Assembly: GCA_002391065.1 (NCBI GenBank)
Contig: DGRP01000094.1
Span: 1 to 21,725 of the forward strand
DNA: 21,725 bases
Direction of reading: 5' to 3'
Source: Ruminococcus sp. UBA4385
Lineage (GTDB): Bacteria; Bacillota_A; Clostridia; Oscillospirales; Ruminococcaceae
The translations under genes and the position numbers were made by a program. This document shows, piece by piece, positions 1 through 11,002 of this stretch; the first letter of the stretch is position 1, and each line of letters opens with the position of its first letter. Below the pieces are notes generated by a model that was not told where the DNA came from, did not search any database, and was given only the letters and a program-made list of their open reading frames with translations.

Positions 1-849
1 AACGAGAACATCTTCAGAATGGAGCAGTTCAATAAGGCAAGAGGCGGCTCGGGACTTGAGAATGTTATCCTCTACGGCTTCATTGAGGATTACATCAAGC
101 TTGTTGATGCACTTGACGGTCTTGATATTCACGCTTCGGTTCTGGGTGTGCCTGCACAGATCACAGGATATGAGAACTTCGAGTTCACAGTGTTTGCAAA
201 TGCGATCGGTGCTCTGTACAGAAGAAATAAGCAGACAGAGCGTATTAACCTCCTCGAGGTCGACCAGTCCACAGGTAAGGGCGGCTCCTCGGGTATGGGC
301 TCGATGATGGTGACAGCCGGCGTTTTCGTTGCAGCAGCCGCAATTCTTGTTACCGCTGCTACATTGATCTTTAATATCAGAGAGAGTTCGATCCAGAAAG
401 ATATTGATACAAAAAAGAAGGAAATCAAGAAGGAAGAGGAAATCAAGAAGAAAAATCAGATCCTTCACAATCAGAAGGATATCCTTCAGGCTTATTCCGA
501 TTACGTAAATGCAGCTAATTCAGCACTGAAGTCTCTGCCGAAGATCAAGCAGGATAACCTTGATAAAATCGACGAAGTTCTTTCGGAGTGCTATCATAAG
601 GGCCTTACATACAATCTGGATACAGGCGCAATTCAGTTTTCAGATCTCAGATTTGAAACTCCTGATCAGATCAATACTGTTATTGATAATCTCTTTGCTC
701 TCGGACTGTTTGAGTCTGATATCGACTACAGCGGATATACGGTCGAAGAACCGGAAGAAGACGATGATAGCGAAGAAAACGATGAAAAGGCTAAGTATCC
801 TGTAGTCGTAAGCTCGATTACGATGTATCTGAAAGGAGAGGCTGAATAA
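1..849 (+). CDS. PilM-PilN fusion protein, C-terminal part (5' end outside window)
   Basis: The frame is open from base 1, so the gene starts upstream and 282 codons are visible; the ATG at 19 is internal. Codons 1-78 resemble the end of PilM, the actin-like cytoplasmic ATPase of type IV pili (pattern NVILYGF...IGALYRR). At codons 82-85 comes INLL, the usual N-terminus of PilN, then a Gly/Ser-rich linker, one membrane helix at about codons 103-124, and a Lys/Glu coiled coil at about 126-150. The C-terminal 130 residues fit the PilN periplasmic-type domain and end in an acidic stretch. PilM and PilN normally are separate proteins that bind through the PilN N-terminus; here they appear joined. 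The stop overlaps the next start (TAATG), so PilO is translationally coupled. Family calls rest on motif and order, not on a search; the fusion is inferred because the PilM ATPase core lies outside the window. Confidence 0.78.
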   Translation, partial: NENIFRMEQFNKARGGSGLENVILYGFIEDYIKLVDALDGLDIHASVLGVPAQITGYENFEFTVFANAIGALYRRNKQTERINLLEVDQSTGKGGSSGMGSMMVTAGVFVAAAAILVTAATLIFNIRESSIQKDIDTKKKEIKKEEEIKKKNQILHNQKDILQAYSDYVNAANSALKSLPKIKQDNLDKIDEVLSECYHKGLTYNLDTGAIQFSDLRFETPDQINTVIDNLFALGLFESDIDYSGYTVEEPEEDDDSEENDEKAKYPVVVSSITMYLKGEAE

Positions 850-1604
850 TGAAACTTAATTACCGTGATAAAGTAATACTTATTGTACTTTCGGTTTTAC
901 TTGTCCTTGTCGGAGGCTTCATGCTTTTTGTAAAGCCTGCAATGGACGACTGCAATAAAGCAAGCGATGAGCTCGAGGCTAAAAAGGTTGAGCTCGCAGA
1001 CCTTAAAGAACAGAACAAAAAAGATGCAAACCTGAAGAATGAGATCAAGGAGCTCAAGACTAAGACCAATGAGGTCGCAGCTAACTTCTATGATTATCAG
1101 ATAGGCTACGACGCAAACAAGACTGTTTACGATCTCTTCGGTGCAGAAGGTGTTGATATCGACGCAAGTTCAATGCAGATCTCAACCTACGGAAGCACAG
1201 TTCTCAGCCCATATCTTTACAATACAAAGCTTACATGGACTGATATGGATATGAGCGTAGATTCCTACAATGAGATGAACAATAAAGACGCGAAAGCAGC
1301 TGATAAAGCAGCAAAAAATGAAAATGCAGCAACCGCAACAGATCCGACAGCTGCAGCTTCTATGGCAGCGATTGGATGCTATCAGATCAATGTAGAATTT
1401 ACATCAAGCTATGAGGGCTTTAAGAAGTTTGCTCAGAATATCACAACTACCAGAGAAAAGTCTATGGTGATCAAGAGTATAACAATTGATGATGTAAACG
1501 GAATGAGCGAAGAAGAAGCCGGCGAAGAGCATGAGGAAAATGTTGGCAAGATCAGCGGAACTATGCAGCTCCAGATGATCGTTCTTAAGAAGATCGCTGA
1601 TTAA
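849..1604 (+). CDS. PilO-like type IV pilus inner-membrane alignment protein
   Basis: A 251-residue protein with the PilO layout: short cytoplasmic tail, one membrane helix at residues 9-28, a charged coiled coil at about 34-76, then a globular extracytoplasmic domain. PilO pairs with PilN to link the cytoplasmic motor to the pilus base. The start is fixed by AAGGAG about 830-837 and by the one-base overlap with the stop of the PilM-PilN gene. Residues 140-175 form an Ala/Asn/Asp/Lys-rich low-complexity insert, an oddity that probably loops out of the fold. Overall sequence similarity to PilO is weak by eye; the call depends on topology, size and position directly after PilN. Confidence 0.72.
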   Translation: MKLNYRDKVILIVLSVLLVLVGGFMLFVKPAMDDCNKASDELEAKKVELADLKEQNKKDANLKNEIKELKTKTNEVAANFYDYQIGYDANKTVYDLFGAEGVDIDASSMQISTYGSTVLSPYLYNTKLTWTDMDMSVDSYNEMNNKDAKAADKAAKNENAATATDPTAAASMAAIGCYQINVEFTSSYEGFKKFAQNITTTREKSMVIKSITIDDVNGMSEEEAGEEHEENVGKISGTMQLQMIVLKKIAD

Positions 1605-5041: not shown

Positions 5042-7081
5042 ATGAAAAAGAATAATAAAGGTTTCACCCTGGTAGAGCTTATAGTTGTTGTTGCTATCTT
5101 CGGAATTATTCTCGGTGCTATCCTGAATATTATCCGACCTACACAAGAGATCTATAACGATACAGATGAGACCATGCATACCAATACGATCGGTTCAGGT
5201 CTTGCTGAGTACATTGATGATGAGCTCAGATATGCTACAAATGTACTCGTGTTTGAAAACTATGCAGGCGTTCCTGAGGTTACCAATACAGGTTTAGTCG
5301 GCAACTATAAATGTGAGTTTACAAACTGTCTCGTACTTGACAACAGAAACCTCAGAGGCTCAAACCTCAAGGGCTTCTCAAGCAGTGCCGATACAGTTGC
5401 AAACAGAATGGGTGCAACAGGTGCTATCATCAAGGTAAGCAAGCTGAATACCGAGGGATTTAACTTCAATAACTCAGTAGTAGTTAAGGGAGTTGATTTC
5501 TACGATAAGTATAAGTTTGAATTCAATAAGTTTGATAAGGCTACCGATAAGATGTTTGATCTGGATTCAAAGGATAAGAAAACAGGTATATCAAGCAGCA
5601 CAAATCTGACCTCGGTTGAAAACAATACAACAAACAAAGAAAAATTCAGAAGATGCCTGTATCTGAAGGTTCAGGCTTTCGTTCCTCGCTATGAAGGCGG
5701 AAAATATGTATTTACAAAGTCCAAGTTCAACAAGCTTACAGCGATAGACCTCATCAATATTAACATTAACAACGGTGATGAGTTCAATCTCCTCGGATCT
5801 CCTGATTTTTCTGTTCAAGGTGTAAATTTCTATTCTCTGTGTGGTACTGATCAGGCTTCTGCTCCTGCCGATGCTACTGACGGTCAGAAGTTATATTATG
5901 ACACTGATGAGGATAACACCTATACTTATATTTTCTATAAGAAGGAATCCAGAGCAACAAAGCCTCAGTGTACATTGAAGTTCTATCGTGACATCACAGA
6001 CCCCGATCAGCCCGGAGCTATGTATACTTCAGACAGAACTGCTCAGAAGGGTTCAACCTATAAGAACTTCCCGCTGCTTCCTGACAAGACAGGATACAAG
6101 CCCGGTTACTGGAAAGATCAGACTACCGGCGATAAAATTGATCCTTCCGCAGGATTCCTTATAACAGGGGATACAACCTTTATATGTATTTATGAGCCTG
6201 AAGAGGTTAAGCCGAGTCACGATGTTACTTATCTGAACTATGACGGCAGTGTGTATCAGACCGTTCCTGTAATGGAGACAGGAACCTGCCCTAACGGCAT
6301 TACAGCGCCGTCTGATATACCCGAAGATAAGTATTTTATTGGTTGGGTATTGGTTGGCGACGAAAGCAAGACCCCATCGGATTGCGTAATGCCCGAAAAC
6401 CCGGGTGCAGGTGCAGTGTTCTCCTTCAAGCCGAGTGTTGGAAACAACTATAAAGTTGAGTTCAGACCGGGCGGAGAAGGCACAGAGATCGATGATTCAA
6501 AAACAAAATATGTTAAGGTCGGAGACAAAGCGATCTGGACAGGCGAACCACCTGAGGCGCCAAGCGGAAAGGTGTTTGATAAGTTTGTACTTGAGGGTAC
6601 AGGACAGAGTATGTCTGAGGTTTATGTAACGTCTGATTGTGTATTCTATGCAACATTTAAGGATGAAGTTGCTCCGGAAGAGCCGGAAGAGCCGGAAGAA
6701 CCCGAAGAACCCGAAGAACCAACACCATCTGAAAGCACTTTAGATGTTCAGGTTGAAAAGATCAATAAGGATGCAGACTGGGGTGGCGGAAATGGACAGA
6801 TATCCATTACGTTCAAAAATGCTTCATCTGAAACAATGAACAAAAAATACAAGTTCATTGTAACGCCACCTAGCGGAGTTAACATAACATCATTCAGTAA
6901 TGCTTGGGGATTTGATGAAAGAATTAATAATTCCTTTGAGAATAACAGCATTGTATATATTGCTGATTGTAGCTATCACACTATTGCTCCCGGACAAAGC
7001 AAGACTTTGTCTATACAGTTAGGTATTTCAGGTGGAAGCCTTAATCCGTCAGGGTTTACATTGACTGTAGTAGAGATTTGA
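5042..7081 (+). CDS. Multidomain type IV prepilin with InlB-like repeats and C-terminal CBM2-like domain
   Basis: A 679-residue protein starting after a strong AAGGAGG site (5025-5032, overlapping the upstream stop). The leader MKKNNKG is cut before FTLVE (E12 is Glu+5), and helix 8-27 is the pilin spine. Residues 28-305 form a pilin-like head. Three tandem modules follow at about 310-385, 393-465 and 469-543; modules 1 and 3 end in F.C.Y/FYATFK and resemble InlB B-repeats (Listeria-Bacteroides repeats), a common extracellular stalk. Residues 546-560 are five EEP repeats, a stiff linker. Residues 567-679 look like a family 2 carbohydrate-binding module. The likely role is a pilus-borne adhesin for cellulose or related polysaccharide, exported by the PilB/PilT machine and matured by PilD. 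Prepilin identity is near certain. The CBM call comes from motif alignment by eye, and ligand binding is inferred. Confidence 0.88.
   Translation: MKKNNKGFTLVELIVVVAIFGIILGAILNIIRPTQEIYNDTDETMHTNTIGSGLAEYIDDELRYATNVLVFENYAGVPEVTNTGLVGNYKCEFTNCLVLDNRNLRGSNLKGFSSSADTVANRMGATGAIIKVSKLNTEGFNFNNSVVVKGVDFYDKYKFEFNKFDKATDKMFDLDSKDKKTGISSSTNLTSVENNTTNKEKFRRCLYLKVQAFVPRYEGGKYVFTKSKFNKLTAIDLINININNGDEFNLLGSPDFSVQGVNFYSLCGTDQASAPADATDGQKLYYDTDEDNTYTYIFYKKESRATKPQCTLKFYRDITDPDQPGAMYTSDRTAQKGSTYKNFPLLPDKTGYKPGYWKDQTTGDKIDPSAGFLITGDTTFICIYEPEEVKPSHDVTYLNYDGSVYQTVPVMETGTCPNGITAPSDIPEDKYFIGWVLVGDESKTPSDCVMPENPGAGAVFSFKPSVGNNYKVEFRPGGEGTEIDDSKTKYVKVGDKAIWTGEPPEAPSGKVFDKFVLEGTGQSMSEVYVTSDCVFYATFKDEVAPEEPEEPEEPEEPEEPTPSESTLDVQVEKINKDADWGGGNGQISITFKNASSETMNKKYKFIVTPPSGVNITSFSNAWGFDERINNSFENNSIVYIADCSYHTIAPGQSKTLSIQLGISGGSLNPSGFTLTVVEI
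6677..6721 (+). repeat. Five tandem 9-bp units encoding Glu-Glu-Pro
   Basis: Five in-frame 9-mers (GAAGAGCCG twice, then GAAGAACCC/A three times) encode the linker between the InlB-like modules and the CBM2-like domain. Such a coding repeat can change in copy number by slippage without breaking the frame, which would alter linker length. Confidence 0.9.
6740..7078 (+). other. CBM2-like carbohydrate-binding domain of the large prepilin
   Basis: Residues 567-679 follow the family 2 pattern: DWGGG opening, I.ITFKN strand, a NAW site, APGQSK (compare iaPGgs) and a closing strand after NPSGFTL (compare aPtaFsLNG). Recalling the Cex CBM2a, its three flat-face tryptophans (W17, W54, W72) correspond here to W580, W622 and Y645 with similar spacing (42 and 23 residues against 37 and 18). 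Core W38 corresponds to Y603. The Cys pair that usually closes CBM2 is missing. Families with related beta-sandwich folds cannot be excluded. Confidence 0.68.
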
Positions 7082-7102
7082 CAATTTTCAAACATTTCAC
7101 AG

Positions 7103-7153
7103 GCGGCTCAAATGAGCCGCTTGCTGAAAAGAACCCCCTGAGAAACCCTCAGG
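7103..7153 (+). terminator. Two tandem hairpins downstream of the pilin operon
   Basis: GCGGCTC/GAGCCGC (7103-7109, 7114-7120; AAAT loop) is followed by CCTGAG/CTCAGG (7137-7142, 7148-7153). Neither is followed by a good U tract. They may protect the 3' end of the pilin mRNA or assist the terminator that follows. Confidence 0.45.
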
Positions 7154-7192
7154 AGGCTCTTTTGAGCAAAACGTAAAGACAGCAAAAAAACA

Positions 7193-7222
7193 GCCGCCCC
7201 GTGCGGACGGCGTGATTTTTTT
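7193..7222 (+). terminator. Bidirectional terminator between the pilin operon and pilD
   Basis: A GC-rich hairpin (GCCG and CGGC arms, one C/A mismatch, inner CC/GG pairs) spans 7193-7211 and is followed by seven T's at 7216-7222 on the plus strand. On the minus strand the same stem is followed by T7 (A's at 7184-7190), so it also ends the pilD transcript. Confidence 0.78.
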
Positions 7223-7226
7223 CATG

Positions 7227-8048
7227 TCATATTATCTGAACTGCATCTTTAAGGAGCTCTCTCATTCCTGTGAACTCCATGTACCAGTTCCCTATGATGT
7301 CGCCGTAAAGCGCTCCGACTGCTATCCCGACTGACAGGAACGGCCCGAATGCAAACTGCGATCCGCCGTTTATCTTTTTCAGGATAAGTCCGCCGATCGC
7401 TCCGCCGATAAGGCCTATGCCGAGCGCAACGAGTATTCCCTGTGTTCCGAGGAAGAGCCCCGCAGCAGCCATGAGGTAAACATCACCCATGCCCATAGCC
7501 CTCTCCTTTGAGATAAGCGCTATAAGCAGCAGCGGTACGCTTACACAGAATGCTCCGATAATGTGCGAGCTTATCGTAAGCTGAAAGTATTCGTCAGTCA
7601 GGAAGATTGAGGCAACTCCGAGAACTGCAATAAACAGACATACAAAGCTGTTTATAAGCTGAGTGTCCCAGTCCATGAAGAATACTACGATCAGTGCCGA
7701 GAACAGCAGGCAGCAAAGAATTGCAGGCCACAGGTTTACAATACCGTCAAAATGCCAGAACACAAACAGGTAGAGAAGTGCATTCAATGCCTCAACAACC
7801 GTGTATCTTGGCGAGATTTTAGCCCCGCAGGCATGACACTTTCCTTTAAGACAGCACCAGCTGATTATCGGGATAAGATCACGCTTCCTGATTTCGGTTC
7901 CGCAGGTCATACAGTGAGAATTGCGCTTGATAAGGCTTTCATTAAGCGGCAGTCTGTAAATGCACACGTTAAGAAAGCTTCCTATACAAGCACCGAAAAT
8001 AAATACAAACACATAAATGACTAAGCTATAAATATCGTATTGAGTCAT
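7227..8048 (-). CDS. pilD: Prepilin peptidase / N-methyltransferase PilD (A24 family)
   Basis: A 273-residue polytopic membrane aspartyl protease that cleaves class III leaders after Gly and usually methylates the new N-terminus. It has the family motifs in order: GxxxGSFLNV.IYRLP at 19-34, the cytosolic zinc tetracysteine (C46, C49, C71, C74), first catalytic Asp in FMDWD (D126), and GMGD with the second catalytic Asp (D189). About eight hydrophobic segments are visible. The start at 8048 is chosen because AGGAGG (8057-8062) lies 8 nt upstream; a longer frame to 8093 would cover the ribosome binding site. It is transcribed alone, convergent to the pilin operon and divergent from pilB, from a well-formed promoter. 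Its substrates should be the two prepilins and the PilX-like protein encoded to its left. Confidence 0.95.
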   Translation of the reverse strand: MTQYDIYSLVIYVFVFIFGACIGSFLNVCIYRLPLNESLIKRNSHCMTCGTEIRKRDLIPIISWCCLKGKCHACGAKISPRYTVVEALNALLYLFVFWHFDGIVNLWPAILCCLLFSALIVVFFMDWDTQLINSFVCLFIAVLGVASIFLTDEYFQLTISSHIIGAFCVSVPLLLIALISKERAMGMGDVYLMAAAGLFLGTQGILVALGIGLIGGAIGGLILKKINGGSQFAFGPFLSVGIAVGALYGDIIGNWYMEFTGMRELLKDAVQII

Positions 8049-8081
8049 TTTACGTTCCTCCTTGAATAATAGGCTGGAACA

Positions 8082-8110
8082 ATTATAGCACATTTTTCAG
8101 AAAAAGTAAA
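8082..8110 (-). promoter_or_regulatory. Sigma-A-type promoter of pilD
   Basis: On the minus strand, TTTACT (8105-8110), a 17-nt spacer and a perfect TATAAT (8082-8087). Transcription should begin near 8075, leaving a leader of about 27 nt before the ATG. Confidence 0.75.
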
Positions 8111-8134
8111 GCATAACTATAAAAAGGCAGCTTA

Positions 8135-8172
8135 CCGCAGAAGCCGCCGTTCGCTTAAAATATTATCTGCGG
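8135..8172 (+). promoter_or_regulatory. Inverted repeat upstream of pilB
   Basis: CCGCAGA (8135-8141) and TCTGCGG (8166-8172) are exact inverted repeats 24 nt apart, ending 4 nt before the pilB ribosome binding site AGGAG (8177-8181). It could be a leader hairpin or an operator. I found no convincing -35/-10 pair for pilB in 8049-8189. Confidence 0.35.
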
Positions 8173-8189
8173 AGACAGGAGTAATATTT

Positions 8190-9866
8190 ATGAGAAACGG
8201 CCCAATAGGTCAATATCTTGTTCAGAAAGGCATGATCACCGAAGAACAGCTCAAGGACGTTCTTGAAAAGCAGAAAGAACGTAAGGGACAGCTCTTTGGT
8301 GACGTTATCGTAGACCTTAAATACGTTACAGACGTTCAGTTTGCACAGGTGCTCGCTGAGAGACTTAACGTTCCTTATGTAGACCTTGACAGTACTGAGC
8401 TTATACCTGATGTTGTAAAGCGTATCAACGAGCAGACTGCAAGAAAGTATACTGTTATTGCAGTCAATAAGGTAGGCAAGCGTCTTACAGTCGCAACTAA
8501 TGACCCTATCAACTTCTATGTATTTGAGGACCTGCGTGTTCTTACAGGCTGCTCTATCGTACCTGTCCTTGCAACCAAGGCTTCTATCAACAGAGCGATC
8601 GGTAAAATGTACTCCGCAGGCAAGACAGACGCTATCGCCGATGAGGCTACTAAAGAGAAGGAAGAAGAGCTCGACCTCGAAGAACTCAAGGATATGTCTG
8701 AGGAGCGTATCGAGAATGCGCCTATCGTTAAGCTTGCTACGGCCATCGTTGAGAACAGCTTCCGTCAGCACGCAACAGATATCCATATTGAGCCTTTTAA
8801 GGATATGACAAAGATTCGTATCCGTGTAAACAGTGACCTTATTGAGCTTATGACCCTGTCAGCAGCGCTGCATACATCGCTCGTAACACGTTTCAAGATC
8901 CTCTCTGGAATGAACATCGCTGAGAAGAGAGTACCTCAGGACGGCCGTATGTCTCAGGTGGTTGACGGCACTACTATTGACCTTCGTGTATCTAATCTTC
9001 CTATGGTATACGGCGAGAAGATAGTTCTCCGTATCCTCGCAAGCGATGACTCCGTAAGACGTATTCAGGACCTCGGTATGACCGACTATAACTACGAGAG
9101 ATTTGTATCCTGCCTGAAGGTGCCTCAGGGCGTTGTTCTTGTAACAGGACCTACAGGTTCAGGTAAATCTACTACACTTTATGCGGCTCTCGGTGAGATC
9201 GCAAAGCCTAACCTTAACGTTATCACGGTCGAAGACCCTGTCGAGAAGAAGATCAGAAATATTAATCAGTGTCAGATAAATGAAAAGGCAGGAATGACCT
9301 TCGGAGCTGCGCTTCGTTCTATCCTCCGTCAGGACCCTGACATTATAATGATCGGAGAGATGCGTGATACCGAGACTGCTGAGATCGGTATCAGAGCCGC
9401 TATCACAGGACACCTGGTTCTCTCCACACTTCATACCAATGACGCAGCTTCCACTGTAACAAGACTTGTGGACATGGGCGTTGACGCATACATGGTTGCG
9501 ACATCACTTATCGGTGTCGTAGCACAGAGACTTGCAAAGGTGCTCTGCCCAGACTGCAAGAAGCAGACAATGTCAAACGATACGGATAATGAGCTGATGC
9601 AGATAGATCACTCTGTTCCTATCTATCAGCCGTGCGGCTGTCCTAAGTGCAACAACACAGGCTACACAGGCCGTACAGCTATCCACGAGATCCTCCTTGC
9701 TACACCTAAGATGAAGGAGATCATCGCTGCAGGTGCAAAGTCAGAACAGATACAGGAGCTTGCCAAAGAAGAAGGCTGCCGCCTGCTTCGTGACAACGTA
9801 TCCCAGCTTGTACAGAAGGGTGTTACATCAATGGATGAGCTTGTTCGTGTAACATACGCAGTATAA
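8190..9866 (+). CDS. pilB: Type IV pilus extension ATPase PilB (GspE family)
   Basis: A 558-residue secretion ATPase that powers pilus polymerisation from the cytoplasmic face. Residues 1-140 are a MshEN/GspE-N domain with two repeated blocks (about 5-28 and 35-58). The ATPase core has Walker A GPTGSGKST (K326), an Asp box, Walker B with E390 in GEMRD, and a His box with LSTLHTNDA. The C-terminal zinc motif, typical of PilB and absent from PilT, is C453, C456, C484, C487. ATG 8190 has AGGAG 8 nt upstream. pilT follows after 71 nt, so the two motors are probably one transcript. MshEN domains can bind c-di-GMP through RLG-type motifs, but here the Arg positions are Pro5 and Leu35, so binding is uncertain. 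Confidence 0.95.
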   Translation: MRNGPIGQYLVQKGMITEEQLKDVLEKQKERKGQLFGDVIVDLKYVTDVQFAQVLAERLNVPYVDLDSTELIPDVVKRINEQTARKYTVIAVNKVGKRLTVATNDPINFYVFEDLRVLTGCSIVPVLATKASINRAIGKMYSAGKTDAIADEATKEKEEELDLEELKDMSEERIENAPIVKLATAIVENSFRQHATDIHIEPFKDMTKIRIRVNSDLIELMTLSAALHTSLVTRFKILSGMNIAEKRVPQDGRMSQVVDGTTIDLRVSNLPMVYGEKIVLRILASDDSVRRIQDLGMTDYNYERFVSCLKVPQGVVLVTGPTGSGKSTTLYAALGEIAKPNLNVITVEDPVEKKIRNINQCQINEKAGMTFGAALRSILRQDPDIIMIGEMRDTETAEIGIRAAITGHLVLSTLHTNDAASTVTRLVDMGVDAYMVATSLIGVVAQRLAKVLCPDCKKQTMSNDTDNELMQIDHSVPIYQPCGCPKCNNTGYTGRTAIHEILLATPKMKEIIAAGAKSEQIQELAKEEGCRLLRDNVSQLVQKGVTSMDELVRVTYAV

Positions 9867-9937: not shown

Positions 9938-11002
9938 ATGGCAATCAACATTAACAAGATTCTTGACGAGGCAAGGGCTCTGGGCTGCTCCGACCTGCAC
10001 TTTACAGTCGGTATTCCCCCTATCGTTCGTCAGGGCGGTAACCTCAGAAAGCTTTCGTCTTATCCTGATATGACCGAGATCGAAATTCAGGACATCTGCA
10101 AAGACATCTGTAACGAGAGACAGCTCCAGCAGGTTAAAGACCACATAGATACCGACCTTACTTATGTATCAAGCAGAGGCTTCCGTCACCGTGTTAATAT
10201 CTATCGTCAGAGAAATAACACAGCTATCGCTTTCCGTCTGCTGAGAAACGATATCCCGACACTTACCGACCTCGACCTTCCGCCTGTACTGGCAGAGTTC
10301 GCTATGCGTCCCCGTGGACTTGTTCTTGTAACAGGCCCTACAGGTTCAGGTAAGTCAACAACACTTGCTGCAATGATCGACCATGTTAATATCCATAAGT
10401 CGGCACATATCATCACAATTGAGGACCCTATCGAGTATATGCACGCTCACAAGAGATGTATGGTAAACCAGAGAGAGATCGGCCCCGACGTACCAAGCTT
10501 CTCAATGGCTCTGAGAGCTGCCCTCCGTGAGGACCCCGATATTATTCTCGTAGGAGAAATGCGTGACTTCGAGACTATCGAAGCTGCCGTAACCGCAGCC
10601 GAGACAGGACACCTTGTTATGAGTACCCTTCATACAACGTCCGCACCTTCCACCATCGACCGTATCATCGACGTTTTCCCTGCACATCAGCAGCACCAGA
10701 TCAGAACTCAGCTCGCATCTGTACTTGTAGGTATCTGTACTCAGACACTCTGCCGTACAATGGACGGTACAAGCCGTGTAGCTTGCTGTGAGATACTGAA
10801 CGCTACCGATAACATCAAGGCAATGGTTCGTGACGATAAGGTACACCTTATCAGCTCGGCAATGCAGACAGGTAAGGCACAGGGAATGCAGACTATGGAC
10901 CAGGAGCTTGCAAAGCTCGTTCGTTCCAAGACGATCTCTATGGACGTTGCACTCGAGAAGTGCGTAAACCCTGCTGACCTCAAGAGATTTATCGCAGGCT
11001 GA
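9938..11002 (+). CDS. pilT: Type IV pilus retraction ATPase PilT
   Basis: A 354-residue hexameric ATPase that depolymerises the pilus and drives retraction and twitching. It has the short PilT layout with no MshEN domain and no zinc tetracysteine: N-terminal PAS-like domain (starting near INKILDEARALGCSDLHF), Walker A GPTGSGKST (K139), Walker B with E207 in GEMRD, and a His box with MSTLHTTSA. The start has GGAGG 9 nt upstream (9924-9928). Its presence next to pilB implies a dynamic, retractable pilus rather than a type II secretion pseudopilus. A hairpin terminator follows at 11020. PilT and PilU paralogues are hard to tell apart from one sequence; as the sole copy seen here, PilT is the better call. 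Confidence 0.94.
   Translation: MAININKILDEARALGCSDLHFTVGIPPIVRQGGNLRKLSSYPDMTEIEIQDICKDICNERQLQQVKDHIDTDLTYVSSRGFRHRVNIYRQRNNTAIAFRLLRNDIPTLTDLDLPPVLAEFAMRPRGLVLVTGPTGSGKSTTLAAMIDHVNIHKSAHIITIEDPIEYMHAHKRCMVNQREIGPDVPSFSMALRAALREDPDIILVGEMRDFETIEAAVTAAETGHLVMSTLHTTSAPSTIDRIIDVFPAHQQHQIRTQLASVLVGICTQTLCRTMDGTSRVACCEILNATDNIKAMVRDDKVHLISSAMQTGKAQGMQTMDQELAKLVRSKTISMDVALEKCVNPADLKRFIAG

Follow-up and report, generated by a model that had tools for sequence, protein, structure and literature searches.

What does the C-terminal domain of a 679-residue type IV prepilin from Ruminococcus sp. UBA4385 contribute to the pilus, and is it a fixed part of that protein? The prepilin is encoded in a stretch of 21,725 nucleotides (contig DGRP01000094.1 of assembly GCA_002391065.1; hereafter the window), and a preliminary description of this DNA had read its C-terminal end as a module of carbohydrate-binding module family 2 (CBM2) built into a pilin. 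In this work, we show by computation a modular architecture, a C-terminal domain (hereafter the tail) with a CBM2-like fold, an exchange of tails between the remaining parts of such pilins (hereafter the scaffolds) and a conserved 3' flank. The reading that we favour, with moderate confidence, is that of a modular minor pilin with a CBM2-like adhesive head for polysaccharide, which is exchanged between cells. As far as sequence comparison can tell, the CBM2-like domain is the variable part of the prepilin and is exchanged between scaffolds, a feature that the preliminary description had missed.

Homologues of the prepilin (120 listed of 174, plus the window protein) were clustered at 88% scaffold identity, and tail classes, whose letters are our own, were assigned by phmmer, some 'A?' labels being given by eye. 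Among the listed homologues, four scaffold groups had at least two members, and all four contained more than one tail type. The closest listed relative of the window protein, P0001 (JGI, on a contig of 8,232 bases), does not differ from it within residues 1-260 and is 96.7% identical to it as far as residue 542, beyond which it carries a different C-terminal domain of another class. With the Pro/Glu linkers trimmed, the two tails were not joined by phmmer at E 1e-3; the likeness returned by an unfiltered BLAST (31% identity over 113 columns, E 7e-7) is for this reason read as the shared Pro/Glu linker. Identity between the two proteins falls to 14 of 20 at residues 521-540, as if the import had begun inside the last repeat. 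In a second group, P0003 differs in tail type from P0004 and P0005, the scaffolds of P0003 and P0004 being 95.3% identical. P0009 and P0010, with scaffolds 89.7% and tails 31% identical, belong to the same broad class, and their sequences show a strong divergence of the tail, not a class change.

The fourth group, which is Ruminococcus bicirculans-like, has 109 members, all from Ruminococcus where a name is given (P0115 is R. bicirculans). Four tail types were found in 71, 31, 2 and 1 of them, the other 4 being too short, and two sets with identical residues 1-300 carry different tails. A tree was drawn for 108 of the 109, of which 101 had a motif label; the seven unlabelled ones comprise three that end at the junction and four that fall with type E. 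The 101 tails require 7 label changes (minimum 3; mean of shuffled labels 21.9), suggesting that in this set tail types are mostly inherited with the scaffold. The proteins that stop at the scaffold/tail junction are P0018, P0020 and P0023; a sample in which several tails coexist may cause assemblies to break at this point. Together with the metagenomic origin of most sequences, such breaks would also suit the view that the tail differences are assembly or binning artefacts, in which a scaffold was joined to a foreign gene end. This is the least likely of the explanations considered and a very improbable one: in G300, an R. bicirculans-like genome assembled into contigs of 2.24 and 0.73 Mb, the pilin carries a class C tail in frame, tail classes are found repeatedly, in numerous separate contigs and genomes, and the pilD flank is conserved.

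Across species, a tree of 41 scaffolds requires 17 changes of tail class, compared with a minimum of 6 and a shuffled mean of 25.3. Class B, with 6 changes in 7 rows, and class C, with 3 in 3, change no less often than expected by chance. In the pair L145/L146 the tails are more alike (88% identical) than the scaffolds (71%), which points to tail transfer between species. Each of the remaining 20 class B pairs in the comparison shows the reverse, with tails that resemble each other less than their scaffolds do, and for these pairs an old polymorphism and an old transfer are indistinguishable. Two observations weigh against the favoured reading. Exchange is not free, since the scaffold tree shows clustering of class A and of class A? 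(for each, 1 of 500 shuffles reached so low a number of changes) and of B2 (0 of 500); moreover, the P0001 breakpoint is visible at the protein level only.

If the tails are exchanged, what is their source? We searched for spare tail cassettes in genomes that are in part incomplete and from which divergent tails could escape detection, the window's own genome not being among them. Class B gave a single match in each of 9 of 29 genomes: eight lie at known pilin places, where the open reading frames (ORFs) are 647-701 residues long, and the last one, found in G001, lies in the 220-residue end of a pilin gene split over two contigs. This open frame was rejected as a cassette, since it is the pilin gene end on another contig, beside pilD. 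G300 has one such pilin and one class C tail, and none of the three other tail types of its group gave a match there. Two of the searches behind this negative say less than the class B scan: one gave no match in either genome and thus had no positive control, and in the other the sole match was G308's own pilin. No second scaffold-plus-tail copy was found in four genomes, and the repeats beside the pilin gene were short, imperfect and scattered pairs, none of them cassette-like. A shufflon or silent cassettes were rejected because no spare tail cassettes were found in the genomes searched, and a diversity-generating retroelement, for which no search was made, was set aside because the tails differ wholly and not at scattered sites. 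A plasmid collection gave no match to the R. bicirculans-like pilin gene. In G300, the pilus cluster with this pilin (L136) lies on contig 2 (727,623 bases) and not on the 2.24 Mb contig; the sizes of the two contigs fit the two replicons of R. bicirculans. Tail exchange appears to take place between genomes.

The DNA downstream of the tail is conserved. Compared with RUG393, the 3' flank is 84.7% identical from 16 bases past the pilin stop to the end of the compared stretch, while the tail region has no DNA match. At the protein level, PilD is 82-100% identical per segment, compared with 44% (9 aligned residues), 37% (16), 13% (30) and 21% (28) in the pilin tail segments. The neighbouring K-like and I-like proteins, unlike PilD, fall to 47% and 27% in middle or outer segments, and both are still alignable to their C-termini (74% and 56%). 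The G+C content of the tail is 37.3%, compared with 42.2% in the scaffold, but 37 of 424 equal-sized scaffold stretches are as low, and therefore this is a weak sign of foreign origin. We infer that homologous recombination with DNA of other strains would be the simplest route of tail exchange.

The CBM2 assignment made in the preliminary description rested on motifs, and a search against Pfam profiles had been proposed as its check. For the window tail itself (the last 117 residues) that check failed: it scored 15 bits against CBM_2, below the cut-off of 24, and 14.4 bits against DUF11, and in a scan of the full-length prepilin N_methyl was the sole match. The tails of its relatives fared better, since 7 of 31 pilin tails (the window and 30 from related genomes) matched CBM_2 at E 0.1 or better and, where scores were printed, L147 (27.9 bits) and L082 (33.3 bits) exceeded the cut-off. 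A profile (A1) of 15 pilin tails picked as CBM2-like, that of the window included, placed CBM2 domains first among solved structures (3ndy, 3.3e-9; 1exg from Cex, 7.1e-9; 6qfs, 2.3e-7; 6f7e, 8.7e-4). Against a profile built without it, the window tail scored 18.1 bits, the best of 5000 of its own shuffles reaching 17.2. In pairwise alignment with 3ndy, 12 of 1000 shuffles scored as high; alignments with other CBM2 domains were weak (154 of 1000 shuffles for 1exg, 268 of 1000 for 6f7e and 416 of 2000 for the CBM2 of a GH5 protein). In structure prediction, the tail is modelled as a beta-sandwich whose nearest solved match in Foldseek is a CBM2. Based on these data, the modelled tail resembles a CBM2 beta-sandwich, and the earlier claim of a CBM2 domain in the prepilin stands as to profile A1 and predicted fold but not as to the score of the window tail alone.

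The A1 profile matched 34 times within the genus, in 22 of 29 genomes, with 11 matches in pilin ORFs (nine of them tails used for the profile) and 23 in other proteins. One of the latter, L162 (2102-4051, G300), is membrane-anchored and combines CBM_2 (58.1 bits) with a GH5 cellulase domain; the other 22 are in ORFs of 405-733 residues across the genus. In L137 and L161 (G308, C16:133937-134260), an in-frame TAG interrupts the CBM2-like pilin tail, so that the head may be off there or the gene decaying.

Besides the score below the CBM_2 cut-off, several results speak against a CBM2 identity of the window tail. Type E tails of the R. bicirculans-like group, which are outside the CBM2 class, scored 15 to 28.6 bits against the same tail profile, a range that includes the window's own score. 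Some beta-sandwiches of other families scored only slightly lower than CBM2 when folds were compared (a mu-homology domain at 8.5, CBM3 at up to 8.3 and cohesins at 7.7). A protein search with the window tail found no relative at E 0.01 among 214 word-sharing candidates, and a search of 29 genomes of the genus, run without a positive control, found none either. A sequence search of the PDB with the window tail alone gave no match up to E 10. As the direct tail searches were empty, its nearest kin were reached through the scaffold: L134, at 27-28% identity and a phmmer E below 1e-4, and L098, at 1e-3 only. Instead, the tail could serve structurally, as a generic domain of the Ig-like or DUF11/CARDB type, or be an adhesin for proteins, in either case sharing the beta-sandwich fold without binding carbohydrate. 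We consider this unlikely, because the best solved matches by both profile and Foldseek are CBM2, two relatives exceed the CBM_2 cut-off, and W580 and W622 match binding-site positions.

These two residues and Y645 had been named as the three cellulose-stacking aromatics of CBM2a, and the alignments agree for two of the three. Position 580 is Trp in all 15 A1 tails (picked as CBM2-like) and position 622 in 9 or 10 of the 15, depending on the alignment; the CBM2a position was recovered for W580 in two of three alignment modes and for W622 in all three. The counterpart of the third aromatic is uncertain by one residue, Y645 not falling exactly on it in multiple alignments, and both models have low confidence in the stretch around W580 (block means of 58 and 48), which also weighs against the favoured reading. 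The conserved Trp bears on another explanation, that the tail, as a target of phages or of immune recognition, is being diversified by selection as a decoy or receptor surface, its glycan binding incidental or lost. Such selection would be consistent with the repeated changes of tail class on the scaffold tree, with outer pilin parts that diverge fast next to a conserved PilD, and with several tails that lack a recognisable binding domain: the one class C tail scanned had no Pfam match, and the class B profile found no clear family in the PDB (best match at E 0.025, a PA14-domain protein). Nevertheless, escape alone would leave unexplained a CBM2-like fold with a binding-site residue kept in every picked tail, and we regard this explanation as improbable.

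The 679-residue prepilin is, as judged from its sequence, real, and its features are collected in the table below together with those of its neighbours. In the full-length model, a pilin module similar to Streptococcus sanguinis PilB is followed by InlB-type B-repeats, a linker and the CBM2-like tip. The prepilin is thus predicted to have both a pilin module fold and a B-repeat fold, and its extra C-terminal module, CBM2-like by profile and by fold, is of a kind not specific to pili. On this model it is a modular pilin, of a kind already described. Foldseek with the full-length model returned as its top two rows a mannose-bound cell surface protein and ABIN1, in long and poor alignments (root-mean-square deviations of 22 and 16 Å). 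We judged the prepilin to be the J-like member of a K-I-J minor pilin cluster by gene order only. No major pilin was recognised among the window ORFs scanned.

Features of the prepilin and of the surrounding pilus gene cluster (positions in the window)
Feature	Position	Strand	Basis
PilM/PilN-like protein	19-849	+	our own naming; no family match above cut-off
PilO/GspM-like assembly protein	849-1604	+	Pfam T2SSM 30.3 bits (cut-off 27.8)
K-like (GspK/ComGG-like) protein, 851 residues	1664-4219	+	NCBIfam ComGG 17.7 and GspK 12.4 bits, both below cut-off
ComGE/GspI-like prepilin, 262 residues	4238-5026	+	N_methyl 26.8 bits (cut-off 21.2); ComGE 25.5 bits, below cut-off
Modular type IV prepilin, 679 residues	5042-7081	+	ORF list; Pfam N_methyl 36.1 bits (cut-off 21.2)
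Class III prepilin signal and start of alpha-1 helix, residues 2-28	5045-5125	+	Pfam N_methyl; model helix 10-63
Pilin module, residues 42-304	5165-5953	+	predicted fold closest to S. sanguinis PilB
Stalk of InlB B-repeat-type beta-repeats	5960-6670	+	first (307-387) and last (469-543) matched; middle one inferred
Pro/Glu-rich linker (PEEPEEP), residues 543-562	6668-6727	+	sequence; mean predicted local distance difference test score 58 and below
CBM2-like C-terminal domain, exchangeable tail, residues 563-679	6728-7078	+	profiles, predicted fold, replacement in P0001
W580, counterpart of first CBM2 aromatic	6779-6781	+	alignments
W622, counterpart of second CBM2 aromatic	6905-6907	+	alignments
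Y645, probable counterpart of third CBM2 aromatic (one residue uncertain)	6974-6976	+	alignment
Conserved 3' flank (terminator and pilD), possible recombination arm	7097-8200	.	DNA comparison with RUG393
Prepilin peptidase PilD	7227-8093	-	A24_N_bact 117 bits; Peptidase_A24 45.5 bits
Extension ATPase, PilB-type	8190-9866	+	type_IV_pilB 562 bits (below cut-off 675.65)
Retraction ATPase PilT	9938-11002	+	pilT_fam 449 bits (cut-off 319)

The score of PilT, above its family cut-off, suggests that the pilus is probably retractable, and the extension ATPase has an MshE-type N-terminal motif for binding cyclic di-GMP (56.1 bits; cut-off 38), by which this nucleotide may control pilus extension. Profile, fold model and gene context all support the combination proposed earlier, of a pilin spine followed by a CBM2-like domain, with a PilT nearby.

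From these parts, the favoured modular minor pilin may be pictured at work as follows. The pilin module would join the tip complex of a retractable type IV pilus, a position that we place there by analogy with S. sanguinis PilB and PilC, and the stalk would hold the end of the protein away from the fibre. The CBM2-like beta-sandwich, as the adhesive head, would most probably bind an insoluble polysaccharide, for example a plant cell-wall glycan or chitin, through W580, W622 and Y645, and PilT would then pull the cell toward it. Heads of different classes sit on near-identical scaffolds across strains and species, each probably replaced by homologous recombination between cells through the conserved last repeat upstream and the conserved terminator/pilD region downstream, so that the pilus could change its grip with its machine unchanged. 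Adhesion would be the selected function, and different ligands the reason for exchange. A wider proposal, which we hold tentatively and at somewhat less than even confidence, is that the heads are interchangeable: a fixed scaffold would be served by a pool of unrelated heads circulating by allelic replacement among strains and species and polymorphic across species borders, each strain gripping a different polysaccharide or ligand, and the window head would be one member of that pool. If true, these ideas would provide a molecular explanation for the help that type IV pili give to cellulose adhesion in Ruminococcus, so far tied to small pilins. Strain-level preference for fibre or niche in gut and rumen Ruminococcus could be read from one gene end, and the natural set of swapped heads on a constant scaffold could serve to test the role of the tip in substrate choice, phage sensitivity and DNA uptake.

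The preliminary description knew of no described pilin of this architecture, a statement that has to be amended, as the literature contains modular pilins, including one that bears a glycan-binding lectin module (PMC8179133, PMC9934059); more than 1,200 modular pilins are listed in the supplement of the former. In the literature searched, which includes neither that list nor most subscription papers, we found no pilin with a CBM2 or another fused carbohydrate-binding module. Among the literature matches listed, nothing was on point for exchanged pilin tips, B-repeat pilins or R. bicirculans pilins. What is new is therefore the exchangeable head, CBM2-like in this case, on a pilin of the known modular kind.

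Pilins of the same genus as the window prepilin include R. albus CbpC/GP25 and R. flavefaciens Pil3. Cellulose adhesion by type IV pili was reported for R. albus (cited in PMC3244431 and PMC3672088) and suggested for R. flavefaciens, in which a type IV pilin was bound to cotton and induced on Avicel (PMC3672088). Weighing against a role of our pilin in fibre adhesion, cellulose did not induce the pilin-like genes of R. albus 7 (PMC4300822). The R. flavefaciens genes pil1 and pil2 have a comparable place in their cluster, and Pil3 is a 14-kDa protein (PMC3672088), whereas the minor pilin of the window is large; the sections seen mention no grafted binding domain for R. albus or R. flavefaciens pilins. 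With members of CBM2 (CBM2a of Cellulomonas fimi Cex; Clostridium cellulovorans EngD) the window domain shares a predicted beta-sandwich, a profile match and two of three aromatics; unlike them, it is below the Pfam cut-off and attached to a pilin instead of a glycoside hydrolase. The tapirins of Caldicellulosiruptor adhere to cellulose and are products of a type IV pilus locus, but are not known to be pilins and have an unrelated fold. In the PilV shufflon of IncI plasmids and in pilE/pilS of Neisseria, an invariant part of the pilin is combined with C-terminal parts that alternate or with parts that vary. Window-type pilins likewise have a constant pilin part with a varying end, but with no spare cassettes in the genomes searched and no cassette-like repeats beside the gene. 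The S. sanguinis modular type IV pilins PilB, with its von Willebrand factor A domain, and PilC, with its lectin, carry other modules in the place of the CBM2-like graft of the window prepilin, which differs from both in being set on an InlB-type B-repeat stalk and in changing its identity between near-identical scaffolds.
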